A DNA stretch of 64,000 bases from NCBI RefSeq assembly GCF_018128905.1, contig NZ_CP063808.1, forward strand, positions 7,254,001-7,318,000. The letters are read 5' to 3'. Each line of letters starts with the position of its first letter. Within the stretch, counting starts at the first letter, position 1. The notes under the pieces are model-generated. The model ran no database searches and was not told the DNA's origin. It saw only the letters and a list, made by a program, of their open reading frames with translations. This document shows, one piece after another, positions 18,986 through 40,216 of the stretch. Both the position numbers and the translations under genes were made by a program. Source of the DNA: Streptomyces sp. A2-16. GTDB lineage: Bacteria; Actinomycetota; Actinomycetes; Streptomycetales; Streptomycetaceae.

Positions 18986-19752
18986 CGGCCACCGGTCTCT
19001 ACACCCCGAAGCCGGGGGCGGCCCCCCTGGGCCGCATGATCACGACCCAGGCCGTGCTGGAGACGAAGATGCTGCTCCGCAACGGCGAGCAGCTGCTGCT
19101 GACGGTGGTGATCCCCACCCTCGTACTGGTCCTGTTCAGCTCGGTGGACATCATCGACACGGGCGGGGCCAAGGCGGTGGACTTCCTCGCCCCCGGCGTC
19201 CTGGCCCTCGCGGTCATGTCCACGGCCTTCACCGGCCAGGCCATCGCCACCGGCTTCGAGCGCCGCTACGGCGTCCTGAAGCGCCTGGCCTCCTCCCCGC
19301 TCCCCCGCTGGGCCCTGATGACGGCGAAGACGGCGTCGGTCCTGGTGACGGAGATCCTGCAAGTGGTGTTGCTCACGGTCATCGCCCTGACCCTGGGCTG
19401 GTCCCCGCACGGCAACCCCTTCGCCGTCGCCCTGCTCCTGCTCCTCGGCACGGCGGCCTTCTCGGGCCTCGGTCTCCTCATGGCCGGCACCCTCAAAGCC
19501 GAAGCCACCCTGGCCGCGGCCAACCTGGTCTTCCTGCTCCTCCTGGTCAGCGGCGGGGTCATCATCCCCCTGGACCAGTTCTCCCAGACCACTCAGGACG
19601 TCCTGAGCCTGCTGCCGATCACGGCCCTGTCGGACGGCCTGCGGGATGTGTTGCAGCACGGGGCCGGGATGCCGTGGGGCGATCTGGGGATCCTGGCGGT
19701 GTGGGGGGGCGTGGGGCTGGCGCTGGCCGGGAAGTTCTTCCGCTGGGAGTGA
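18982..19752 (+). CDS. ABC-2 type exporter permease (DrrB-type)
   Basis: The protein has 256 residues and six predicted membrane helices (e.g. LLLTVVIPTLVLVLFSSVDI, FLAPGVLALAVMSTAFTGQA, VVLLTVIALTLGW and LVFLLLLVSGGVIIPL). The cytoplasmic EGRRYGVLKRLAS-like motif appears as ERRYGVLKRLASSPL, standard for ABC-2 permeases. It overlaps the ATPase gene by 4 bases. The tail, GKFFRWE, is also typical. It would work with the ATPase as a dimeric exporter. Confidence 0.92.
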   Translation: MTATGLYTPKPGAAPLGRMITTQAVLETKMLLRNGEQLLLTVVIPTLVLVLFSSVDIIDTGGAKAVDFLAPGVLALAVMSTAFTGQAIATGFERRYGVLKRLASSPLPRWALMTAKTASVLVTEILQVVLLTVIALTLGWSPHGNPFAVALLLLLGTAAFSGLGLLMAGTLKAEATLAAANLVFLLLLVSGGVIIPLDQFSQTTQDVLSLLPITALSDGLRDVLQHGAGMPWGDLGILAVWGGVGLALAGKFFRWE

Positions 19753-19781
19753 CTTTCCCGGGGAACGGGAAGAGTCGCCCA

Positions 19782-21905
19782 ATGTTCGAGTCCGCGGATT
19801 CGTCGAGTGTGCGAGCTCTCCAGCCCCTGCTGCACGACGTGGTGATCTGCGTCGCGGCCCCGTCCTTCGTCGCCTCCCCACGGGACGGGCAACTGCGCGG
19901 GCTGCGCGCGGACGGGTTCTACGGCCATGACCGCAGGCTGCTGCACACCGCGTGCCTGCTGGTGAACGGCCGGGAGCCCGAGCCGATAGGGCTCCAGCAA
20001 CTGGGCCCGGACCGGGTGCGTTTCACTTCCGTCCACCGCTATCGCGGAGCCCGCACGGACGACCCCACGGTGATCATCGAGCGAGTGCGCACGGCCGGGG
20101 AGGGCGAGACCGTCCTGCTGCGGAACGTCGGCGTCACGACCCGTCGATTACACGTCGAGCTGGCCCTCGCCACCGACCTCGCGGACATCGCTCTCGTCAA
20201 GCGCGGCGACGCGGAGACCGCCGTACGCTCCACCGTCCTGCCGGACGCGACCGGCCTGGAATGGCGGACGGCCACGGCCCGCGCAGCGGTCCGCGCCACG
20301 GGCGACGGCATGGTGCCGGAGGTCACCGACGGCCCGGAGGGCGGCACGTTCGCCTGGCCCCGGGTGCTGCTCAGACCCGGCGAGACCCGGCGGATCAGGC
20401 TCGACGTCGTCGGCGGGACCGTCCCCGCTCCGCCCGGTCACCCGGACGCCCCCCGCTCCCCGGCGCCCTGGGCCGAACCCGTCGTACGGGGCGACCGCCG
20501 CCTGGTGGAGCTGGTGCGCCACGGCCTCGGCGACCTGAGCGCGCTGCGTCTGGCGGATCCCGACCGCCTGGACCCCGAGGACCAGTTCATCGCGGCGGGA
20601 TGCCCCTGGTACCTGACGCTTTTCGGTCGCGATTCCATCTGGTCGGCGCGGATGATGCTGCCCCTGGGCACCGATCTGGCCCGCGGCACGCTGTGGGCGC
20701 TGGCCCGGCGTCAGGGCACGGCGCACGACGTGTTCCGGGAGGAGGCGCCGGGCCGCATCCTCCACGAACTGCGTCCGGCTGACGCCCAGCACGGCCATGG
20801 TCTGCGTCTGCCCTCCCGGTACTACGGCTCGGTCGACGCGACCCCCCTCTTCGTGTCCCTGCTGGCGGAGGCCTGGCACTGGGGGCTGCCGGACGCGGAG
20901 ACGGACGCTCTGCTGCCGTACGCGGAACGCGCCATGGACTGGGTCGTGGAGACGAGCAACGACGACGAGGACGGCTTCCTGCGCTACTACCCACGCGCCG
21001 GCGGACTGCTTCACCAGTCGTGGAAGGACAGCGAGGACGCGGTGCGGGACGCGGCGGGCCGCCGTATCGAGCCGCCGCTGGCGCTGTGCGAGGTACAGGG
21101 ATACGCCTACGAGGCGGCGACCGGGCTGGCAGCGCTGCTGGCGTCCCGGGGCCGCTTCGAGGCGTCCGCGCGTCTGCGCACCTGGGCGGAGTCGCTGCGC
21201 AAACGCTTCGCCGACGCGTTCTGGCTGCCGTCCCCGCAGGGGCCGGCCTCCCGCTATGTCGCCATCGCGGTGGGGCGGGGCCGGAAACCGGTCAGCGGCC
21301 CCGCGTCCAACATGGGCCAGCTGCTGTCCACCGGCATCCTGGACGCACAGGGCTGCCAGGACGTGGCGGCGTGGCTGGCCGCGAGCGAGCTGAACTCCGG
21401 CTGGGGACTGCGCAGCCGCTCCGCGGAGCTGGGCGGATACAACCCGATGAGCTACCACGGCGGTTCGGTCTGGACGCATGACACGGCGATAGCGATCCAC
21501 GGCCTCTGCGCGGCGGGCTGCGACACCGAGGCATACACCCTCGCGGACGGCCTCCTGGACGCCGCGACCCACTTTGGCTACCGCATGCCGGAACTCTACG
21601 GCGGCGACCACCGCACCCCCGGCTCACCCGCACCCCTGGCATACCCGGCCGCCTGCCGCCCGCAGGGCTGGTCGGCCGCCTCGGGTGTGGCGCTCCTCGC
21701 CGCGCTGCTCGGGCTGCGTCCCGACGCCTCGGAGCGGACGCTGCGGATCCGTCCCATGCCGGCGGACCTCATCGGACCGCTGTCCGTACAGGGCCTGCGG
21801 CTGGCAGGGGAACCGCTCAGGATCCGGACGGCACGCTCGGGCGAGGTGGAGGTGACGGGACTGCCCGTGGGCTGGACGCACTCCGCCGGACGACCGCACG
21901 GGTGA
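19782..21905 (+). CDS. Glycogen-debranching-like (GH63/amylo-1,6-glucosidase-type) protein
   Basis: The protein has 707 residues. An N-terminal glycogen-debranching domain (about 15-210: FVASPRDGQLRGLRADGFYG and later EPEPIGLQQLGPDRVR) is joined to an (alpha/alpha)6 barrel with the typical WYLTLFGRDSIWSARMM, YVAIAVGRGRK, LNSGWGLRSRSAE and YNPMSYHGGSVWTHDTAIAI blocks. The Asp/Glu residues expected for catalysis in such barrels appear in GRDSIWS and WKDSEDAVRD. The natural substrate is uncertain. A GT4 glycosyltransferase lies convergently behind it and overlaps its end by 89 bases; this suggests a linked role in an alpha-glucan or trehalose-type sugar. Confidence 0.85.
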   Translation: MFESADSSSVRALQPLLHDVVICVAAPSFVASPRDGQLRGLRADGFYGHDRRLLHTACLLVNGREPEPIGLQQLGPDRVRFTSVHRYRGARTDDPTVIIERVRTAGEGETVLLRNVGVTTRRLHVELALATDLADIALVKRGDAETAVRSTVLPDATGLEWRTATARAAVRATGDGMVPEVTDGPEGGTFAWPRVLLRPGETRRIRLDVVGGTVPAPPGHPDAPRSPAPWAEPVVRGDRRLVELVRHGLGDLSALRLADPDRLDPEDQFIAAGCPWYLTLFGRDSIWSARMMLPLGTDLARGTLWALARRQGTAHDVFREEAPGRILHELRPADAQHGHGLRLPSRYYGSVDATPLFVSLLAEAWHWGLPDAETDALLPYAERAMDWVVETSNDDEDGFLRYYPRAGGLLHQSWKDSEDAVRDAAGRRIEPPLALCEVQGYAYEAATGLAALLASRGRFEASARLRTWAESLRKRFADAFWLPSPQGPASRYVAIAVGRGRKPVSGPASNMGQLLSTGILDAQGCQDVAAWLAASELNSGWGLRSRSAELGGYNPMSYHGGSVWTHDTAIAIHGLCAAGCDTEAYTLADGLLDAATHFGYRMPELYGGDHRTPGSPAPLAYPAACRPQGWSAASGVALLAALLGLRPDASERTLRIRPMPADLIGPLSVQGLRLAGEPLRIRTARSGEVEVTGLPVGWTHSAGRPHG

Positions 21906-23124
21906 GGCGATCCCATGGCCACCGCCGACGCGGAACCGACCGGAGCGCCTTCGCGTACGCGCTGATCAGCGGAGGCAGACACCGGTGTTCGAGGTCGAAG
22001 TCCTCCCGCACCCGCCGACGCGCGGCGATGCCGACCTCCCTGGCCGTGTCCGGGGAGCGCAGCAGCTGGACGAGGCAGTCGGCCAAGCTCTCGGCGTCCC
22101 CGGGGGCGACTAGGAACCCGGACACGCCGTGCTCCCCGATACCCTCCGCGAGACCCCCCACGTCGGTGGCGATCACGGGGCGGGCCGAGCACATCGCCTC
22201 GAGCGCGGCGAGCCCCATGGGTTCGGCGAACAGGGAGGGACACACCACCACCCGCGCCCGGCGATACAGCTCGGCCATCCCGTCCACACCCGCACGTTCG
22301 AAACGAACTCGATCGGTTTCCGGAAGGAATTTCGCCCATTCCTGCACGGAATCACGGAATCCGACCTTCTCTCCATGGAAATCGACCGAGTCCGGGGTGT
22401 CCATCAGGACCAAGTACGGCCGGACCGCAAGATCCTGCTTGATGACCTTGGCCATGGCCTTCACCGCCATCTCCGCGCCTTTGTCGGGAATGAGACGGGC
22501 CGGCAGAAGAATGACGGCCTCGTCGCCCTCGGACGGATCGGTGAGTTCCGGAACCTGCAGATAGGGCTCGGTGTCAATACCCAGGTACATCGGGTTGGCA
22601 CAGCGCACACCCAACACGTCCGCGCAGGCCCGCCGCAGGAATTCGGAGACCGCGAAGTGGACGTCGAACCGGCCGCAGGGCTTTGCCAGCCGTACGCTCG
22701 CAGGCTCCCTCCAGATACTGTGGTAAGTGTGCAACAGGACCAGCCCCATGGAGTCCCGGAGGTCGAGCAGGGCCTCGGCCGGAGCCGACGAGAAGTGGTG
22801 CAGATTGTGACCGTGCACCAGCCGGATCCCCCGCCCGGACAACTCCTCGCGGAACCAGTCCCGCAGAGCCTGCCGCTCCGCACCGTCCCCTGTGGCCCGT
22901 GACAGGTCGAGTCCGGGATGCCGCAGTACCTCGATCCCGTCCCCGGGCGGCGTCCTCGCATCGGGCGTCCCCGTGAACACCGTCACCCTGTGCCCGTGTC
23001 GGGCGAGCAGCCGGGAACAGTTCCACAGGTAGGACTCGACCCCGCCGACCGTGGGCGGAAATGCCCAATGGACCAGCGCGATGTCCAGCCCTTCAGGGGT
23101 CCGTGAACCGCTCTCCTGTCCCAT
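21817..23124 (-). CDS. GT4-family glycosyltransferase
   Basis: The protein has 435 residues with the GT-B fold. The N-terminal VHWAFPPTVGGVESYLWNC (nucleotide/acceptor side) and the C-terminal donor-site E-x7-E in LFAEPMGLAALEAM identify GT4. A GGLAEGIGEHGVSGFLV block follows. The last 30 residues (RAVVRRSASS and a Ser/Pro-rich tail) are unlike the family and lie in the part that overlaps the debranching gene on the other strand; the true C-terminus might be shorter in function. It probably makes a glucosyl- or mannosyl-linked metabolite. There is no regulator nearby. Confidence 0.88.
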   Translation of the reverse strand: MGQESGSRTPEGLDIALVHWAFPPTVGGVESYLWNCSRLLARHGHRVTVFTGTPDARTPPGDGIEVLRHPGLDLSRATGDGAERQALRDWFREELSGRGIRLVHGHNLHHFSSAPAEALLDLRDSMGLVLLHTYHSIWREPASVRLAKPCGRFDVHFAVSEFLRRACADVLGVRCANPMYLGIDTEPYLQVPELTDPSEGDEAVILLPARLIPDKGAEMAVKAMAKVIKQDLAVRPYLVLMDTPDSVDFHGEKVGFRDSVQEWAKFLPETDRVRFERAGVDGMAELYRRARVVVCPSLFAEPMGLAALEAMCSARPVIATDVGGLAEGIGEHGVSGFLVAPGDAESLADCLVQLLRSPDTAREVGIAARRRVREDFDLEHRCLPPLISAYAKALRSVPRRRWPWDRLTRAVVRRSASSPRAVPSPPPRPSVPSGS

Positions 23125-23357
23125 TGCCGCCTCCGGGCGCCCTCGTCACCGCGCTCGGGCCACACCCGGAAACGGCAGAACAAACCTCCGCGAGCCGGGA
23201 TCGTATTGCACGGCACGGCTCGCCGTTCGCCTCTTTAACGAAACGGTTGCCCACCGGTTGCGAAGAAGAGAAGAAGGGGAAACTGAAGATTAGATGACAT
23301 TCACCCTCAAACGCGAGTGTGCGCTCGCGCTGAGGCGGAGCGACTTCGGGGGGTCGC

Positions 23358-25988
23358 ATGCGGTCGTGGGTGGTCACGTTATCCGCTGGTACGGGGGCCG
23401 GGGTGGCCGCCTTTCTCTCCGTGGCGGTCAAGGCCGCCGACTCCGGGGAGCCGCTGTTGTGGGTGCTGGCCGCGGGCGCCGCCCTCGTCATCGGCCTGAC
23501 GGGCGGGGTCGCGGCGCATGTGGCGCGCAGGACAGCGGACGACCCACCGGCCAAGGCGGTCGGCCCGGGGCAGGGCCCGCCCAACAACCTCCCCATGCTC
23601 AGCATGTACTTCACGGGTCGCGTCGCGGAGAAGGATGCCATCGTGGCCGTCCTGAAGAGGCCCGCCCGGGGGTGGCGGCAGAAGGACGAACGTCCCGTGC
23701 CCCGGCTGTGCGTGCTCTACGGAGCGACCGGTGCCGGCAAGTCGCAGCTCGCCGTGTCCTACGCCCACCGCGAGCTGAGCAGGCACACCCTGACCTGGTG
23801 GCTCAACGCCTCCCGGCCCGACACCCTGCGCACCGAACTCCTGGAGTTCGCCCAGTACGTGGGCATCCCGGACCAGGAGAGCAAGAACGTCGTCCTGATG
23901 AACCTGTGGAGCAGGCTGCGCGAGCAGCGGGGCTGGCTGCTCGTCTACGACGGATGGCCCACCTACGACGACTCGATGCGCAGTCTGCTGCCCTCCGAGG
24001 GCGACGGCGAAGTACTCATCACCACCCAGCAGCACCAGGGCTGGACCGGCCTGCGGTCCGCCCCGGTGGAGCTGCGGGCCTTCCCGGAGCAGGAGGGCGT
24101 CGAGTTCCTGCGGCGTCGGTTCGGCATCGCGCCCGAGCAGCTGACCGACGGGGACCGCCGGGCACTGACCGCGCTGGGCCACGAGCTGGGTTGGCTGCCG
24201 CTGGCCCTCGACCAGGCCGCGGCCTACATCGCGCAGGCCGAGATCACCGTGGCCGAGTACCTGCGTGACCTGCCGGGTGGGGCCTCGGTGGAGGGCACCT
24301 TCCGGCTCTCCATCGCTCGGGTCTCGGAGGCCTCACCCGCCGCCGTGGACCTGCTGCGCCTGTGCGCGTTCCTGGCCTCCGAGGACGTCCAGAGGACGAC
24401 ACTCACCCAGCACCGGTCCGTCCTGCCCGCCCGTCTGCGCACCGTCATGGCCGACCCCGTCACCTTCACCCGGGAGGTGCTGCTGCTGGTGGACCACTCC
24501 TTGCTGACCCGCAGCGGTGACTGGCGCAAGGGATCGGCCGCGTACGGCATGCACCCACGGGTGCAGACCCTGATCCACGACGGGCTGAGCCTGGCCGAAC
24601 GCCTGGAGTGGTCCCAGGCGGCGGTCCGTCTCGTGGAGGCCTGCTTCCCGGCGACCCCGGACCTGCTGGCGTCCCGGCCCACGTGTGAGCGGCTGATGCC
24701 CCACGTCGAGGCGGCCATCGACAAGCTGGCCTGGGGCGACGACGCAGACGGCGGGCTCGGCGCCTCGCAGGACCCCGAGGCGCTGGCCCGTCTGCTGCAC
24801 CGCGTGGGCACGTACCAGGAGCACCGCTGCGACTGGGTGCGGGCCCTCAACTTCTTCGAGCAGGAAGCTGAACTCCGCGAGTTCGGGGACGACCACGAAC
24901 TCGCCCGCGCCTCCGCCCGGTACGCCGTGGCCCGCCAGCACTACCTGCTGGCGGCGCTGGACGACGCCGAGCGGGAGTGCCGTCGGGCGCTGGATCTGTG
25001 CGAGGGACATGAGGAAGAGGCGTTCCTGCGATTACGGGCCCAGTGCCAGCGACAGCTGGGCGGCATCATGCGCGAGTACAACCGCTTCCCGGAGGCCCTG
25101 GAGGCAGTGCAGACGGCCGTGAAGATCTACGAAGGGCAGACCTGGCGGGAGGAGAGCCTCGACTGGGCCGTCGCCGAGCAGGAGATCGGTCTGGTCCATC
25201 GCAACGCGGGACAGCTCGCCCAGGCGGTCGTCCACTACGAGCGCGCCAAGGAGCGGATCCCCAGCCGCGGGAACCAGGAGCCTCCGGAGTACACGCTCTT
25301 CCGCGCCATGCTGCAGCGCGACCTCGGCATCGTCGCCCAGGACCGCGGGCAGCTCGAACCGGCGGAGGAGTCGCTGACCACGGCGCTGGAGATGTTCGGG
25401 GCGCACCGGGGGCCGGAGGACTTCGAGACCGCCCAGGTGGCCAAGTTCCTCGCCGATGTGCTGCGCCGGCGCGCCGAACAGGACCGGGAGCAGGCGCGGC
25501 GCACCCTGCAACCCGTGCGTCGCCTCGATCTGCTGCGCCGGGCCCGCTCGGAGCTGGCCCGCGCCGACGCGATCCTCGGCCCGGTGGTGGAACTGCACAG
25601 CAAGCGCAGCGAGGCCGAGGAGCACAAGTACGCGGCCTGTCTCAACAAGCTGGGCTCTCTCCGGCTCGCGCAGGGGCGGATCTCCGAGGCGCGACGCACC
25701 CTCGAGCGGGCCGAGGAGATCTACCGGCGTTCCTACGGCGAGCGGCACTACTACCGCGCGAAGTCGCTGACCCGGCTCGGGCCGGTGCTGCGCGCCGAGG
25801 GCCGGGGCGCGGACGCCGAGCGGGTACTCAGGGACGCGGGAGAGATCTTCCGTACCGCGCTCGGCTGCGACCACCCCGTCCTGATGGCCGTGTACGAGCA
25901 TTTGGCCGCATGTGTCGCGGACCGGGGCGCCCAGGCGGAGGCCGCCCGGCTCAGGGCCGAAGCGGAACGCATCCGCCGGTCCCTGTGA
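23358..25988 (+). CDS. Membrane-anchored STAND (NB-ARC/TPR) ATPase
   Basis: The protein has 876 residues from the ATG at 23358, with GGGGGG as ribosome binding site 4 bases upstream. Two N-terminal membrane helices (about 5-24 and 33-55) are followed by an NB-ARC/AP-ATPase: Walker A YGATGAGKSQLAVSY (Lys128), Walker B WLLVYDG (193-199), the GxP motif GWLPLALDQAAAY (278-290) and an MHD-like AYGMHPRVQTLIHDG (residues 396-410). A TPR array fills about residues 470-870 (repeats such as ARYAVARQHYLLAALDDAER and NKLGSLRLAQGRISEARRTL). STAND ATPases sense a ligand with the repeats, oligomerise and trigger an effector; some are antiphage. Here the only effector candidate is the membrane hairpin. It stands alone. 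See findings. Confidence 0.85.
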   Translation: MRSWVVTLSAGTGAGVAAFLSVAVKAADSGEPLLWVLAAGAALVIGLTGGVAAHVARRTADDPPAKAVGPGQGPPNNLPMLSMYFTGRVAEKDAIVAVLKRPARGWRQKDERPVPRLCVLYGATGAGKSQLAVSYAHRELSRHTLTWWLNASRPDTLRTELLEFAQYVGIPDQESKNVVLMNLWSRLREQRGWLLVYDGWPTYDDSMRSLLPSEGDGEVLITTQQHQGWTGLRSAPVELRAFPEQEGVEFLRRRFGIAPEQLTDGDRRALTALGHELGWLPLALDQAAAYIAQAEITVAEYLRDLPGGASVEGTFRLSIARVSEASPAAVDLLRLCAFLASEDVQRTTLTQHRSVLPARLRTVMADPVTFTREVLLLVDHSLLTRSGDWRKGSAAYGMHPRVQTLIHDGLSLAERLEWSQAAVRLVEACFPATPDLLASRPTCERLMPHVEAAIDKLAWGDDADGGLGASQDPEALARLLHRVGTYQEHRCDWVRALNFFEQEAELREFGDDHELARASARYAVARQHYLLAALDDAERECRRALDLCEGHEEEAFLRLRAQCQRQLGGIMREYNRFPEALEAVQTAVKIYEGQTWREESLDWAVAEQEIGLVHRNAGQLAQAVVHYERAKERIPSRGNQEPPEYTLFRAMLQRDLGIVAQDRGQLEPAEESLTTALEMFGAHRGPEDFETAQVAKFLADVLRRRAEQDREQARRTLQPVRRLDLLRRARSELARADAILGPVVELHSKRSEAEEHKYAACLNKLGSLRLAQGRISEARRTLERAEEIYRRSYGERHYYRAKSLTRLGPVLRAEGRGADAERVLRDAGEIFRTALGCDHPVLMAVYEHLAACVADRGAQAEAARLRAEAERIRRSL

Positions 25989-26054
25989 CCGATGCCTCAG
26001 GGGCCGCCACCCGGAAACGACGACCCTCGTGAAAGCGTGCACAAGCAACGCCCC

Positions 26055-35531: not shown

Positions 35532-36760
35532 AGACAGACCTCACCGACACCACCGCCAGCAAGATCAACAAGGCGCTGGTCAAGGCGCGCCGGGCCATCG
35601 GCACACCGGCCGTCGGCATGGTGCTCACGCTGGTCATCGTCACCGACGAGGAGAACGCCTACGACGCCCTCAAGGCCGCCGGAGACGCGTCCCGCGAGCA
35701 CCCCTCGCGCACGCTGGTGGTCATCAAGCGGGTGTCGCGCAGTCCTCGTGACCGCACCCAGTCCCGCCTCGACGCCGAGGTGCGGGTGGGCGCGGACGCG
35801 GGCACCGGCGAGACGGTGGTGCTGCGGCTGTACGGCGAGGTGGCCGACCACGCCCAGTCGGTCGTCCTGCCGCTGCTGCTGCCGGACGCGCCGGTCGTCG
35901 TCTGGTGGCCGGTGGACGCGCCGCTCGACCCGGCCGGGGACCCGCTGGGTGCGCTCGCCCAGCGGCGGGTGACCGACACGTACGCCTCCGAGCAGCCGGT
36001 GCGCGAGCTGACGGCGCGCGCCGAGACCTACGCCCCGGGCGACACCGACCTCTCCTGGACCCGGATCACCCCGTGGCGCTCGATGCTGGCCGCCGCGCTC
36101 GACCAGGTCACCTGCGAGGTGGAGGCCGTCGAGGTGGAGGGCGAGGAGTTCAACCCGAGCTGCGAGCTGCTGGCGATGTGGCTGGCGGACCGGCTGGACG
36201 TGCCGGTGAAGCGGTCGCTGTCCGGCGGCCCCGGTCTGACGGCCGTACGCCTGCACACGGACAGCGGTCCGATCGTGCTGGACCGTGCGGACGGCTCGCT
36301 CGCCACGCTCTCCATCCAGGGGCAGCCGGACCGTGCGGTGGCGCTCAAGCGCCGGGACACGGCCGAGCTGATCGCGGAGGAGCTGCGCAGGCTGGACCCG
36401 GACGACACGTACGCCTCCGCGCTGCGGTTCGGGGTGGAACGGCTGAACCCGTCGGCGCCCTTTCCGGGACCGTCGGCGCCCTTTCGGGAACCGGCTCCCA
36501 AAGGAGAACCCGGATCCGTCGCGGACAAGCCCGTCGGCGACGAATCCGCCGCCGAGGGGTCCGGCGCCGCAGAGTCCTCCTCCGGGGAGCCCGTCTCCGG
36601 AGGATCCGCTGGATCCGCTGGATCCGGAGCTTCCGCGGAGCTCGCCGTCAAGGCCCCTGTCGAGGGCCCTGCGAAAGCTCCCCGGGCGGAAGGGGCGCCG
36701 TCGGCATCGCTGAAGCCGGTCCCCTCCGGCCTGACCGGGAACGGGAAGGCGGCGAAGTGA
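35528..36760 (+). CDS. opcA: OpcA, G6PDH assembly/activator protein, with long disordered tail
   Basis: OpcA is needed for active G6PDH oligomers in cyanobacteria and actinobacteria. The folded part (about 1-305) contains MVLTLVIVTDEENAYDALKA, VVWWPVDAPLDPAG and FNPSCELLAMWLADRLDVPV. Residues about 310-410 form an unusual Pro/Ala/Ser/Gly/Glu-rich tail with two copies of an APFPG/REP-like unit and GGSAGSAGSGAS. OpcA homologues usually end near 310-350 residues, so the tail is an extension. It overlaps zwf and pgl by 4 bases each. Confidence 0.93.
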   Translation: MKTDLTDTTASKINKALVKARRAIGTPAVGMVLTLVIVTDEENAYDALKAAGDASREHPSRTLVVIKRVSRSPRDRTQSRLDAEVRVGADAGTGETVVLRLYGEVADHAQSVVLPLLLPDAPVVVWWPVDAPLDPAGDPLGALAQRRVTDTYASEQPVRELTARAETYAPGDTDLSWTRITPWRSMLAAALDQVTCEVEAVEVEGEEFNPSCELLAMWLADRLDVPVKRSLSGGPGLTAVRLHTDSGPIVLDRADGSLATLSIQGQPDRAVALKRRDTAELIAEELRRLDPDDTYASALRFGVERLNPSAPFPGPSAPFREPAPKGEPGSVADKPVGDESAAEGSGAAESSSGEPVSGGSAGSAGSGASAELAVKAPVEGPAKAPRAEGAPSASLKPVPSGLTGNGKAAK

Positions 36761-37539
36761 GCACCCCGCAGCTGGTCGTGCACCACGACAAGGAGCTGAT
36801 GGCCCAGGCCGCCGCGGCCCGCCTGATCACCAGGATCGTGGACGCGCAGGCCTCCCGGGGCTCCGCGTCGGTGGTCCTCACCGGCGGCCGCAACGGCAAC
36901 GGTCTGCTCGCCGCCCTGGCCTCGGCGCCCGCCCGGGACGCCGTCGACTGGGGCCGTCTGGACCTGTGGTGGGGCGACGAGCGCTTCCTGCCCGAGGGCG
37001 ACCCGGAGCGCAATGTCACGCAGGCCCGCGAGGCCCTGCTGGACGCCGTACCGCTGGACCCGAAGCGCGTGCACGCCATGCCGGCGTCGGACGGCCCCCA
37101 CGGCGCGGACGTCGAGGCCGCGGCGGCGGCCTACGCCGAGGAGCTGGCCCGTGCGGCCGGTCCCGAGAACCACGGCGCGGTCCCGACCTTCGACGTGCTG
37201 ATGCTGGGCGTCGGCCCGGACACCCATGTGGCGTCCCTGTTCCCGGAGCTGCCCGCGGTCCGGGAGACCGAGCGCACGGTCGTCGGTGTGCACGGCGCGC
37301 CGAAGCCCCCGCCGACCCGGGTGACGCTGACGCTGCCCGCGATCCGCGCGGCACGCGAGGTGTGGCTGCTCGCGGCCGGCGAGGACAAGGCGCAGGCCGC
37401 GGCGATCGCCCTGTCCGGCGCGGGGGAGATCCAGGCCCCGGCGGCGGGGGCGCGCGGCCGGGCCCGCACCCTGTGGCTGCTGGACTCGGCGGCGGCGTCC
37501 CAGCTGCCGAGGTCGCTGTATCCACCGGCCTCGCCGTAA
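36757..37539 (+). CDS. pgl: 6-phosphogluconolactonase
   Basis: It hydrolyses 6-phosphogluconolactone produced by Zwf. The 260-residue protein starts at GTG 36757, which overlaps the opcA stop (GTGA). The N-terminal LTGGRNGNGLLAAL and the family motifs WGRLDLWWGDERFLPEGDPE and FDVLMLGVGPDTHVASLFPE are clear. The GGGNDGHV sequence of the classic motif is replaced by GVGPDTHV. It ends the operon. Confidence 0.95.
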   Translation: MSTPQLVVHHDKELMAQAAAARLITRIVDAQASRGSASVVLTGGRNGNGLLAALASAPARDAVDWGRLDLWWGDERFLPEGDPERNVTQAREALLDAVPLDPKRVHAMPASDGPHGADVEAAAAAYAEELARAAGPENHGAVPTFDVLMLGVGPDTHVASLFPELPAVRETERTVVGVHGAPKPPPTRVTLTLPAIRAAREVWLLAAGEDKAQAAAIALSGAGEIQAPAAGARGRARTLWLLDSAAASQLPRSLYPPASP

Positions 37540-37575
37540 CACCCGTTTCGCGTACGGCGGTCGACGCCGGGTCCC

Positions 37576-38203
37576 TCAGAAGGGGCCCGGCGTCGTCGCG
37601 ACGTCGGGGAAGACGTAGTTCTGCCAGTCCTCCGGCTCCCTGCGGATCTCCCGGAGCAGGTTCGAGAACACCGGAGCGTCGAAGAGCACGCCGTTGCAGT
37701 CGGCGTCCTCATTGGCCTTCTCGGACGCCTTCATGAAGGCCCGGTACTTCATGCCCTTCACCGCCGAGTCGAACGCCGGGCCCCGCAACCCGTCGACACG
37801 CTCGGCCAGTTCGAGCAGACGGTCATGGGTGAAGCCGTCCTCGGACTCCTCGGGCTGGTGGCGGCAGAGCACTTGGTGGTGCTCCGCGAACCTGCCCTCC
37901 GCCGGCGCCGCCCGCAGGGCGTTGACCGCCTTCTCCGAACCGCTGCCGCCGACCCTGTCGTCCAGGAAGGACGCCAGGGACTCGGTCCTCGTCTCCCCCC
38001 GTACGGTCGCCTCCCGCAGCTCCGGGCCGCCGCCGGTGGACTCGAACTCCTCGTAGACCGGGCACCTCGGGTCCTCGTAGAGGTGCACCCCTCACCGGCG
38101 CGTGCGGGTTGCCGACGGTGATCGTCGTGCCGTCGGCACCGAGCTTCTCCGGAACCGCCTCCAGACCGCTGTAGGCGCCCCCGCCGTGACCGGCACGGGG
38201 CAT
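37576..38203 (-). pseudogene. Frameshifted DsbA-like thioredoxin-fold gene
   Basis: Two frames are needed to rebuild one protein. In the first frame, from the ATG at 38201-38203, comes a segment ending EKLGADGTTITVGNPHAPV. In the second, from about 38088, the typical continuation HLYEDPRCPVYEEFE and the rest of a DsbA-like fold follow to 37576. The break coincides with a four-base run of C (38088-38091; G on the coding strand); removing one base would restore a single frame. In addition the CPxC active site is CPVY, without the second Cys, no export signal is present, and the cis-Pro region is not recognisable. It is 38 bases downstream of pgi. Either it is decayed or the run contains a sequencing error. 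Confidence 0.7.
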
Positions 38204-38241: not shown

Positions 38242-39897
38242 TCACTGGCGTCCGCGCAGCTCCCGGTACGTCGCCACCAGGGCCTTCGTGGACGCGTCCA
38301 GGCCCGGCACCTCGACGCCCTCGGTGAGCGCCGGCTCGACGCGCTTGGCGAGGACCTTGCCGAGCTCGACGCCCCACTGGTCGAAGGAGTCGATGTTCCA
38401 GACGGCGCCCTGGACGAACACCTTGTGCTCGTAGAGGGCGATGAGCTGGCCCAGGACCGAGGGGGTCAGTTCGCGGGCCAGGATCGTCGTCGTGGGGTGG
38501 TTGCCCTGGAACGTCTTGTGCGGGACCAGCTCCTCGGCCACACCCTCCGCCCGCACCTCGTCCGGTGTCTTGCCGAAGGCCAGCGCCTGGGTCTGGGCGA
38601 AGAAGTTCGCCATCAGCAGGTCGTGCTGGGCCTTGAGCCCGTCGCTCAGCTCCTCCACCGGCTCGGCGAAGCCGATGAAGTCCGCGGGGATGAGCTTGGT
38701 GCCCTGGTGGATCAACTGGTAGTAGGCGTGCTGCCCGTTGGTGCCGGGCGTGCCCCACACCACCGGTCCGGTCTGCCACTCGACCGGCCGACCGTCGCGC
38801 TGCACCGACTTGCCGTTGGACTCCATGTCCAGCTGCTGGAGATAGGCGGTGAACTTCGACAGGTAGTGGCTGTACGGCAGTACGGCGTGCGACTGGGCGT
38901 CGTGGAAGTTGCCGTACCAGATGCCCAGCAGGCCCAGCAGCAGCGGCACGTTGGCCTCGGCCGGGGCGGTGCGGAAGTGCTCGTCGACGAGGTGGAAGCC
39001 GTCGAGCATCTCGCGGAAGCGGTCGGGGCCGATGGCGATCATCAGGGAGAGACCGATCGCCGAGTCGAAGGAGTAGCGGCCGCCGACCCAGTCCCAGAAC
39101 TCGAACATGTTGTCCGGGTCGATGCCGAACTCCGCCACCTTCCCGGCGTTGGTCGACAGGGCCACGAAGTGCCGGGCGACGGCTTCCTGGCCGGCCTTGA
39201 GCTCGTCGAGCAGCCAGGCGCGGGCCGAGGTGGCGTTGGTGATCGTCTCGATGGTGGTGAAGGTCTTGGAGGCGATGACGAAGAGCGTCTCCGCCGCGTC
39301 CAGGTCGCGGGTGGCCTCGTGCAGGTCGGCGCCGTCGACGTTGGACACGAAGCGGACGGTGAGGTCGCGGTCGGTGAAGCCGCGCAGCACCTCGTAGGCC
39401 ATCGCGGGACCGAGGTCGGAGCCGCCGATGCCGATGTTGACGACGTTCTTGATCCGCTTGCCGGTGTGCCCGGTCCACTCACCGGAACGGACCCGGCCCG
39501 CGAAGTCGCTCATCCTGTCGAGCACGGCGTGCACCTGAGGCACGACGTTCTCGCCGTCGACCTCGATCACCGCGTCGCGCGGGGCCCGCAGCGCGGTGTG
39601 CAGCACGGCCCGGTCCTCGGTCGTGTTGATCTTCTCGCCTCGGAACATGGCGTCCCTGAGCCCGAACACATCGGTCGCGGCGGCGAGTTCGCGCAGCAGC
39701 CGCAGCGTCTCGTCGGTGACCAGGTGCTTGGAGTAGTCGACGTACAGGTCACCGACCCGCAGTGCGTACTCGGTGCCGCGGCCGGGATCGGCGGCGAAGA
39801 GCTCCCTCAGCCGCACCTCGCCGAGCTCCTCGCGGTGCTCGGCCAGCGCGGTCCACTCGGGCGTCCGGTTGAGCCTGGTACGGCCGTCTGCGTTCAT
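38242..39897 (-). CDS. pgi: Glucose-6-phosphate isomerase
   Basis: The 551-residue enzyme interconverts glucose-6-P and fructose-6-P, linking the pentose operon to glycolysis. It shows the conserved block [20 protein letters not shown], the [18 protein letters not shown] loop with active-site His, and the C-terminal [19 protein letters not shown]. The start is the ATG at 39895-39897. It is upstream of the DsbA-like pseudogene. Its promoter must lie in the 729-base spacer to rbpA. Confidence 0.96.
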
Positions 39898-40216
39898 GTC
39901 CGACTTCAGCCTTCTTTCGTGCCTGTCCCAGCTGGTCCAACCTAGTTGATCAACGCGGGGCGCGAGCCGTACCGACTGCGGCGCCGACCGCACCAACAGG
40001 TACGTGCGCGCGGAGCGCGGGTATCAGCGGGACGGCGAAACAGCACGAGGAGGGGCACCGCGGACAGGATCGGGCCGTTCGTCCTTCGTCCCGGCTCGGG
40101 CGGGTCGAGCTGGGACATGCCGCTCGCGGGAGACCGGGGCAGGCGGCCGTGGACGGTGATCGCGGGCGGCGATGAGGAGCAGAGTTCGGTCAGGGGCCCG
40201 GCGAGGAGGGGCCGCC

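Follow-up and report, generated by a model that had tools for sequence, protein, structure and literature searches.

The closest described relatives of the gene considered here are BdbD of Bacillus subtilis (3eu3/3eu4), the DsbA/DsbG-like proteins of Mycobacterium tuberculosis (4ihu, 4k6x and 4jr4) and Sli-DsbA of Streptomyces lividans (SLIV_28015). According to the accessible part of its description (PMC6657201), Sli-DsbA is a lipoprotein thiol-disulfide oxidoreductase with a Cys-X-X-Cys motif, found with BdbD as query, the deficiency of which affected agarase as well as alpha-amylase, the latter more strongly than did deficiency in the other three enzymes. The ancestral gene of the locus described below resembles Sli-DsbA in being a lipoprotein gene of this kind; by contrast, Sli-DsbA is, in that same part of the source, intact and functional in S. 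lividans, whereas the gene studied here is broken.

The window, that is the whole stretch of 64,000 nucleotides analysed, is part of a Streptomyces chromosome; in the 9.8 Mb genome, assembled in two contigs, it occupies positions 7254001-7318000 of contig 1. We consider the copy of the gene that it carries between pgi and pgl to be a pseudogene, an ordinary dead gene, with a probability of about 0.95.

The locus and its intact relatives

The neighbouring genes, which we take to be zwf, opcA and pgl on the forward strand and pgi, secG and tpi on the reverse strand, occur in an order that recurs at related loci; the names pgl and pgi are presumed from the sequence and the gene order. In S. coelicolor, SCO1935-SCO1942 form a pentose phosphate cluster according to the part of PMC4848846 that is accessible, and the neighbourhood in the window would be the counterpart of this cluster. 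The features of the locus are collected in Table 1.

Table 1. Coordinates of features at the pgi-pgl junction, numbered within the window
Feature	Position	Strand	Basis or remark
Pseudogene of a DsbA/BdbD-like lipoprotein (Thioredoxin_4 family)	37576..38203	-	Syntenic intact orthologues (L034 and L035), DNA alignments
N-terminal remnant, frame 1 (ATG 38203)	38092..38203	-	Past 38092 the frame runs on out of register to the stop at 37823
C-terminal remnant, second frame, 170 codons and stop	37576..38088	-	Stop at 37576-37578
pgl (6-phosphogluconolactonase, presumed), convergent neighbour	36757..37539	+	Sequence and gene order
pgi (glucose-6-phosphate isomerase, presumed), upstream neighbour	38242..39996	-	Longest ORF; the real start may be internal
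GC-rich hairpin between the convergent genes	37563..37594	.	Folding; one arm reaches into the pseudogene's last codons
Deletion junction, 109 nt relative to RP5T	38198..38199	-	Start codon, lipoprotein signal and, read by eye, the ribosome site are lost
Run of four (C on +, G on -), frame change	38088..38091	-	Net +1 base relative to two intact relatives
Former active site CPxC, now CPVY	38053..38064	-	CPxC in 25/25 relatives; private change C72Y
3-nt deletion junction	37979..37980	-	Alignment with intact relatives
69-nt deletion junction	37705..37706	-	Residues ~190-212 lost: GTPT (cis-Pro) loop and following strand

Intact positional orthologues were found in Streptomyces sp. RP5T (L034, 254 codons) and in S. 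pseudovenezuelae (L035, 255 codons), both with a LAGC lipobox, CPVC and GTPT in one frame and both at junctions where pgi, the lipoprotein gene and pgl adjoin one another. The predicted structure of the RP5T protein (mean pLDDT 86.0, pTM 0.82) is nearest, by Foldseek, to the M. tuberculosis DsbG/DsbA-like proteins, staphylococcal DsbA and BdbD. Against BdbD and the M. tuberculosis entries listed above, the Foldseek probability is 1.00, with E-values of 1.7e-8 to 9.3e-8 for the best chains, sequence matches at E 1.7e-7 to 1.9e-5 and only 19-24% identity in the structural alignments. The ancestral gene would have lain directly behind pgi and its product would have been an exported, lipid-anchored thiol-disulfide oxidoreductase of the DsbA/BdbD type, the enzymatic role of the intact protein being a presumed one. 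Unlike BdbD and the M. tuberculosis proteins, the window copy has neither the full active site nor the cis-Pro loop; the RP5T and S. pseudovenezuelae genes, at the same place, differ from it in retaining the start, the lipobox, CPVC, GTPT and a single frame.

Searching the contigs of the genus with six peptides from the window piece returned 25 loci, with GTPT in 24 and the lipobox pattern in 22 (the other three have GTGC, SSGC and STGC, read by eye).

Lesions of the window copy

Aligned at the DNA level with RP5T and S. pseudovenezuelae, the window copy carries five lesions (Table 1), and this supports the original prediction of a gene in decay, made from the sequence of the window. That prediction had placed the two halves of the protein in different frames meeting at a run of four C, and the sequence bears this out. 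The frame opening at the ATG encodes 126 aa and carries the N-terminal part (...GTTITVGNPHAP), and the second frame, of 170 codons, is still open. The C-terminal 170-aa piece matches the protein of Streptomyces sp. RP5T, the gene of which is intact at the same pgi/pgl junction, at 74%, and that of S. pseudovenezuelae at 70% identity, while the upstream piece lies in the other frame and matches the RP5T protein from residue 25, where the N-terminal match begins, to residue 70; because both pieces match in this way, the two-frame split goes beyond chance. The run of four at the junction could be taken as a site of programmed frameshifting joining the two frames, an idea of negligible probability, as the intact relatives read through in a single frame and the window has no recognisable start or signal upstream.

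The original prediction also described an active site reduced to CPVY and a missing export signal. Both hold: neither frame opens with anything like an export signal when read by eye, and the alignment places the signal codons within the 5' deletion. Relative to S. pseudovenezuelae this deletion amounts to 112 nt, which the aligner splits into 60 (38198/38199) and 52 (38180/38181). The 3-nt and 69-nt internal deletions are additions to the earlier description, visible only through the relatives; the strand lost after the GTPT loop, the loop with the cis-Pro role, is 203-206 in the predicted structure of the intact RP5T protein. In the alignment with S. pseudovenezuelae, two one-base gaps near 37617-37623 compensate each other; they are absent against RP5T and were set aside as an alignment effect.

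Compared with a functional DsbA/BdbD-like oxidoreductase, the window copy thus has CPVY for CPxC, no GTPT, which went with the 69-nt deletion, and no signal codons for export or a membrane anchor (alignment and reading by eye). Its C-terminal piece, the part covered by the profile scores, reaches 21.9 and 22.6 bits on PF13462 (Thioredoxin_4), under the cut-off of 23.2, compared with 73.5 and 74.7 bits for the intact RP5T and S. pseudovenezuelae proteins; in NCBIfam the window piece has no matches and the intact proteins only matches under the cut-off. Homology and synteny with intact copies together with disabling lesions are what is expected of a pseudogene of this family, and all of these are seen here.

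The original prediction had also allowed for a protein that was already altered, with a sequencing error in the run added to it. The altered protein stands, four of the lesions being independent of the run, and a single-base error in the run itself is possible, the sequence coming from one assembly. Its further expectation of three C as the intact state does not exactly match the two intact relatives, in which the run is shorter than three and the neighbouring base differs. If the frame break were a mere sequencing error, favoured by the GC-rich run and the single assembly, the gene might encode an altered but useful protein in one frame. We judge this very improbable: the start, the signal, the second cysteine and the cis-Pro loop are absent whatever the length of the run, and a possible error there is immaterial since these were lost independently of it. 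In addition, about 66 kb of genome G140, in four pieces, was set against the window, keeping 51 ORFs of G140, a figure that includes several antisense shadows and is not a gene count; four of them were split and none was read, by eye, as a break within a gene. The split matches near 53.8 kb and 59.1 kb come from ORF starts called too far upstream, that near 53.1 kb belongs to an ORF shadowing the genes next to it, and that at 30.4-30.9 kb covers both the starts of two divergent genes and the space between them and lacks the GC pattern of coding sequence. In the same comparison, positions ~19750-26050 of the window had no matching ORF in the syntenic G140 stretch, which suggests a variable segment.

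Returning to the pseudogene, the start, the signal and the cis-Pro loop were lost in this lineage by deletion and the second active-site cysteine by a point change, while the gain of one base split the reading frame. A working product is not expected. We infer both the independence of these lesions and the order in which they arose.

Recurrent loss in the clade

To follow the gene among relatives, 52 loci were examined, of which 21 had both pgi and pgl and 31 were dropped, one of the two genes not being found in the stretch. A tree was built on the pgi and pgl codons of 19 loci plus the window, leaving out the locus of the window itself and a duplicate of the RP5T contig. The loci come from samples of 295 (first) and 392 (later) genomes of the genus, and junctions were retrieved with a preference for highly similar pgl or for a match already known, so that the following counts of states in the clade are not frequencies in the genus.

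The window falls inside a clade of nine rows (support 100/99), in which the gene is intact in two (RP5T and S. pseudovenezuelae), decayed in three (the window, G140 and G234) and erased in four (G200, G291, G141 and G221), where 87-123 nt separate the aligned ends of pgi and pgl. Decayed G234 is sister to intact S. pseudovenezuelae (100/98), and decayed G140 to erased G141 (95/89). The deletion ends differ among the three decayed copies, and for this reason their deletions are best read, from the sequences, as independent; the second active-site cysteine was also lost differently in each, by C72Y in the window, C72R in G234 and a deletion in G140. The G221 junction keeps a 22-nt scar of signal-peptide codons; of 1000 shuffles, preserving base composition only and not dinucleotides, 0 reached its score against RP5T, 0 against S. 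pseudovenezuelae and 1 against G234. The G200 junction was not counted as having a scar: against RP5T 3 of 1000 shuffles equalled its score, but against the other two references 588 and 79 of 1000 did. G291 and G141 have 7 nt ahead of the hairpin, too short for scar testing. The hairpin sequence itself is retained in all four erased junctions; in the window, a pattern scan for terminators found nothing, and the hairpin was not called as one.

Of the rows that fall outside this clade, 11 in all, five carry the gene (S. antibioticus, GKU 895, G245, G111 and G020), and in six it was not found (G313, G062, G261, G177, G314 and G366). We count at least three losses in the clade, a lower bound and not an exact number because the place of the window in the clade is unsettled and 9 of 17 inner branches are open.

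Two side observations concern the flanking genes. The pgi gene appears as two tblastn pieces in L104 (G291), near 1892-1895, and in L131 (G177), near 1550-1573, which may reflect either a broken pgi frame or a misassembly. At L127 (G111) and L135 (G020), and also in G117, G033, G016, G151 and G387, the lipoprotein gene follows pgi and pgl is about 10-16 kb away; something probably lies between the lipoprotein gene and pgl there that is missing from the window.

Substitution counts

The private N/S ratio is 0.66 for the window (23 changes), 0.37 for G140, 1.0 for G234, 0.59 for RP5T and 0.42 for S. pseudovenezuelae. Pairwise, the window gives 0.53 with RP5T, 0.58 with S. pseudovenezuelae, 0.60 with G140 and 0.90 with G234; the two intact copies give 0.47 between them (0.54 when restricted to the 159 codons that four rows share), and the pgi and pgl control 0.12-0.20. 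These counts are small, do not separate the window copy from the intact copies and on their own are no demonstration that selection on it is relaxed; the decay may be recent, or the gene may always have been loosely constrained.

A ratio of 0.66, not clearly 1, and 170 codons still open are what one would cite for the 170-aa (or the 126-aa) frame being a new cytosolic protein with no redox function and under selection. This seems to us a shade less probable even than a mere sequencing error, as the 69-nt deletion cuts the thioredoxin core, the gene is broken or erased in further lineages of the clade, and the ratio is no sign of new constraint because the intact copies have similar ones.

Other DsbA-like genes and relation to Sli-DsbA

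The original prediction called for an intact copy to be looked for elsewhere in the genome. A second copy of the same gene was not found there; two further intact DsbA-like genes were, 39% and 37% identical over the matched part, lying about 153 kb and 185 kb away with open frames, CPAC/GTPT and CPVC/GTPT, and a membrane segment in both (by eye). Another match in the same genome (L004) is weak (E 3.9e-4). The two paralogues may cover the role of the lost gene.

The numbering of S. coelicolor genes would put SLIV_28015 near pgl-pgi. Three of the four S. lividans enzymes have close locus numbers (28015, 27535 and 27370) in the accessible part of PMC6657201, like the gene and the two paralogues here, although the fit in spacing is rough, the locus numbers there being about 96 and 33 steps of five apart, against 153 and 31 kb here. 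From its position, and comparing locus numbers and not sequences, it is plausible that the ancestral gene is the orthologue of Sli-DsbA. In the portions accessible of the literature on Streptomyces DsbA pseudogenes and on SLIV_28015/SCO1940/SCO1941, we found no description of this decay.

As for annotation, the 170-aa frame is to be recorded as a pseudogene rather than as a protein. Close relatives show the gene at this junction intact, broken or erased, a clean small example of gene decay, and the junction marks strains that live without this Dsb lipoprotein. A broader reading, speculative and in our opinion rather doubtful, is that this Streptomyces clade is repeatedly and independently discarding a pgi-linked DsbA lipoprotein that, if orthologous, is highly important for secreted enzymes in S. 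lividans; in that case the task of forming disulfides would have passed to the DsbA-like proteins that are left, or else the substrates secreted would have changed.
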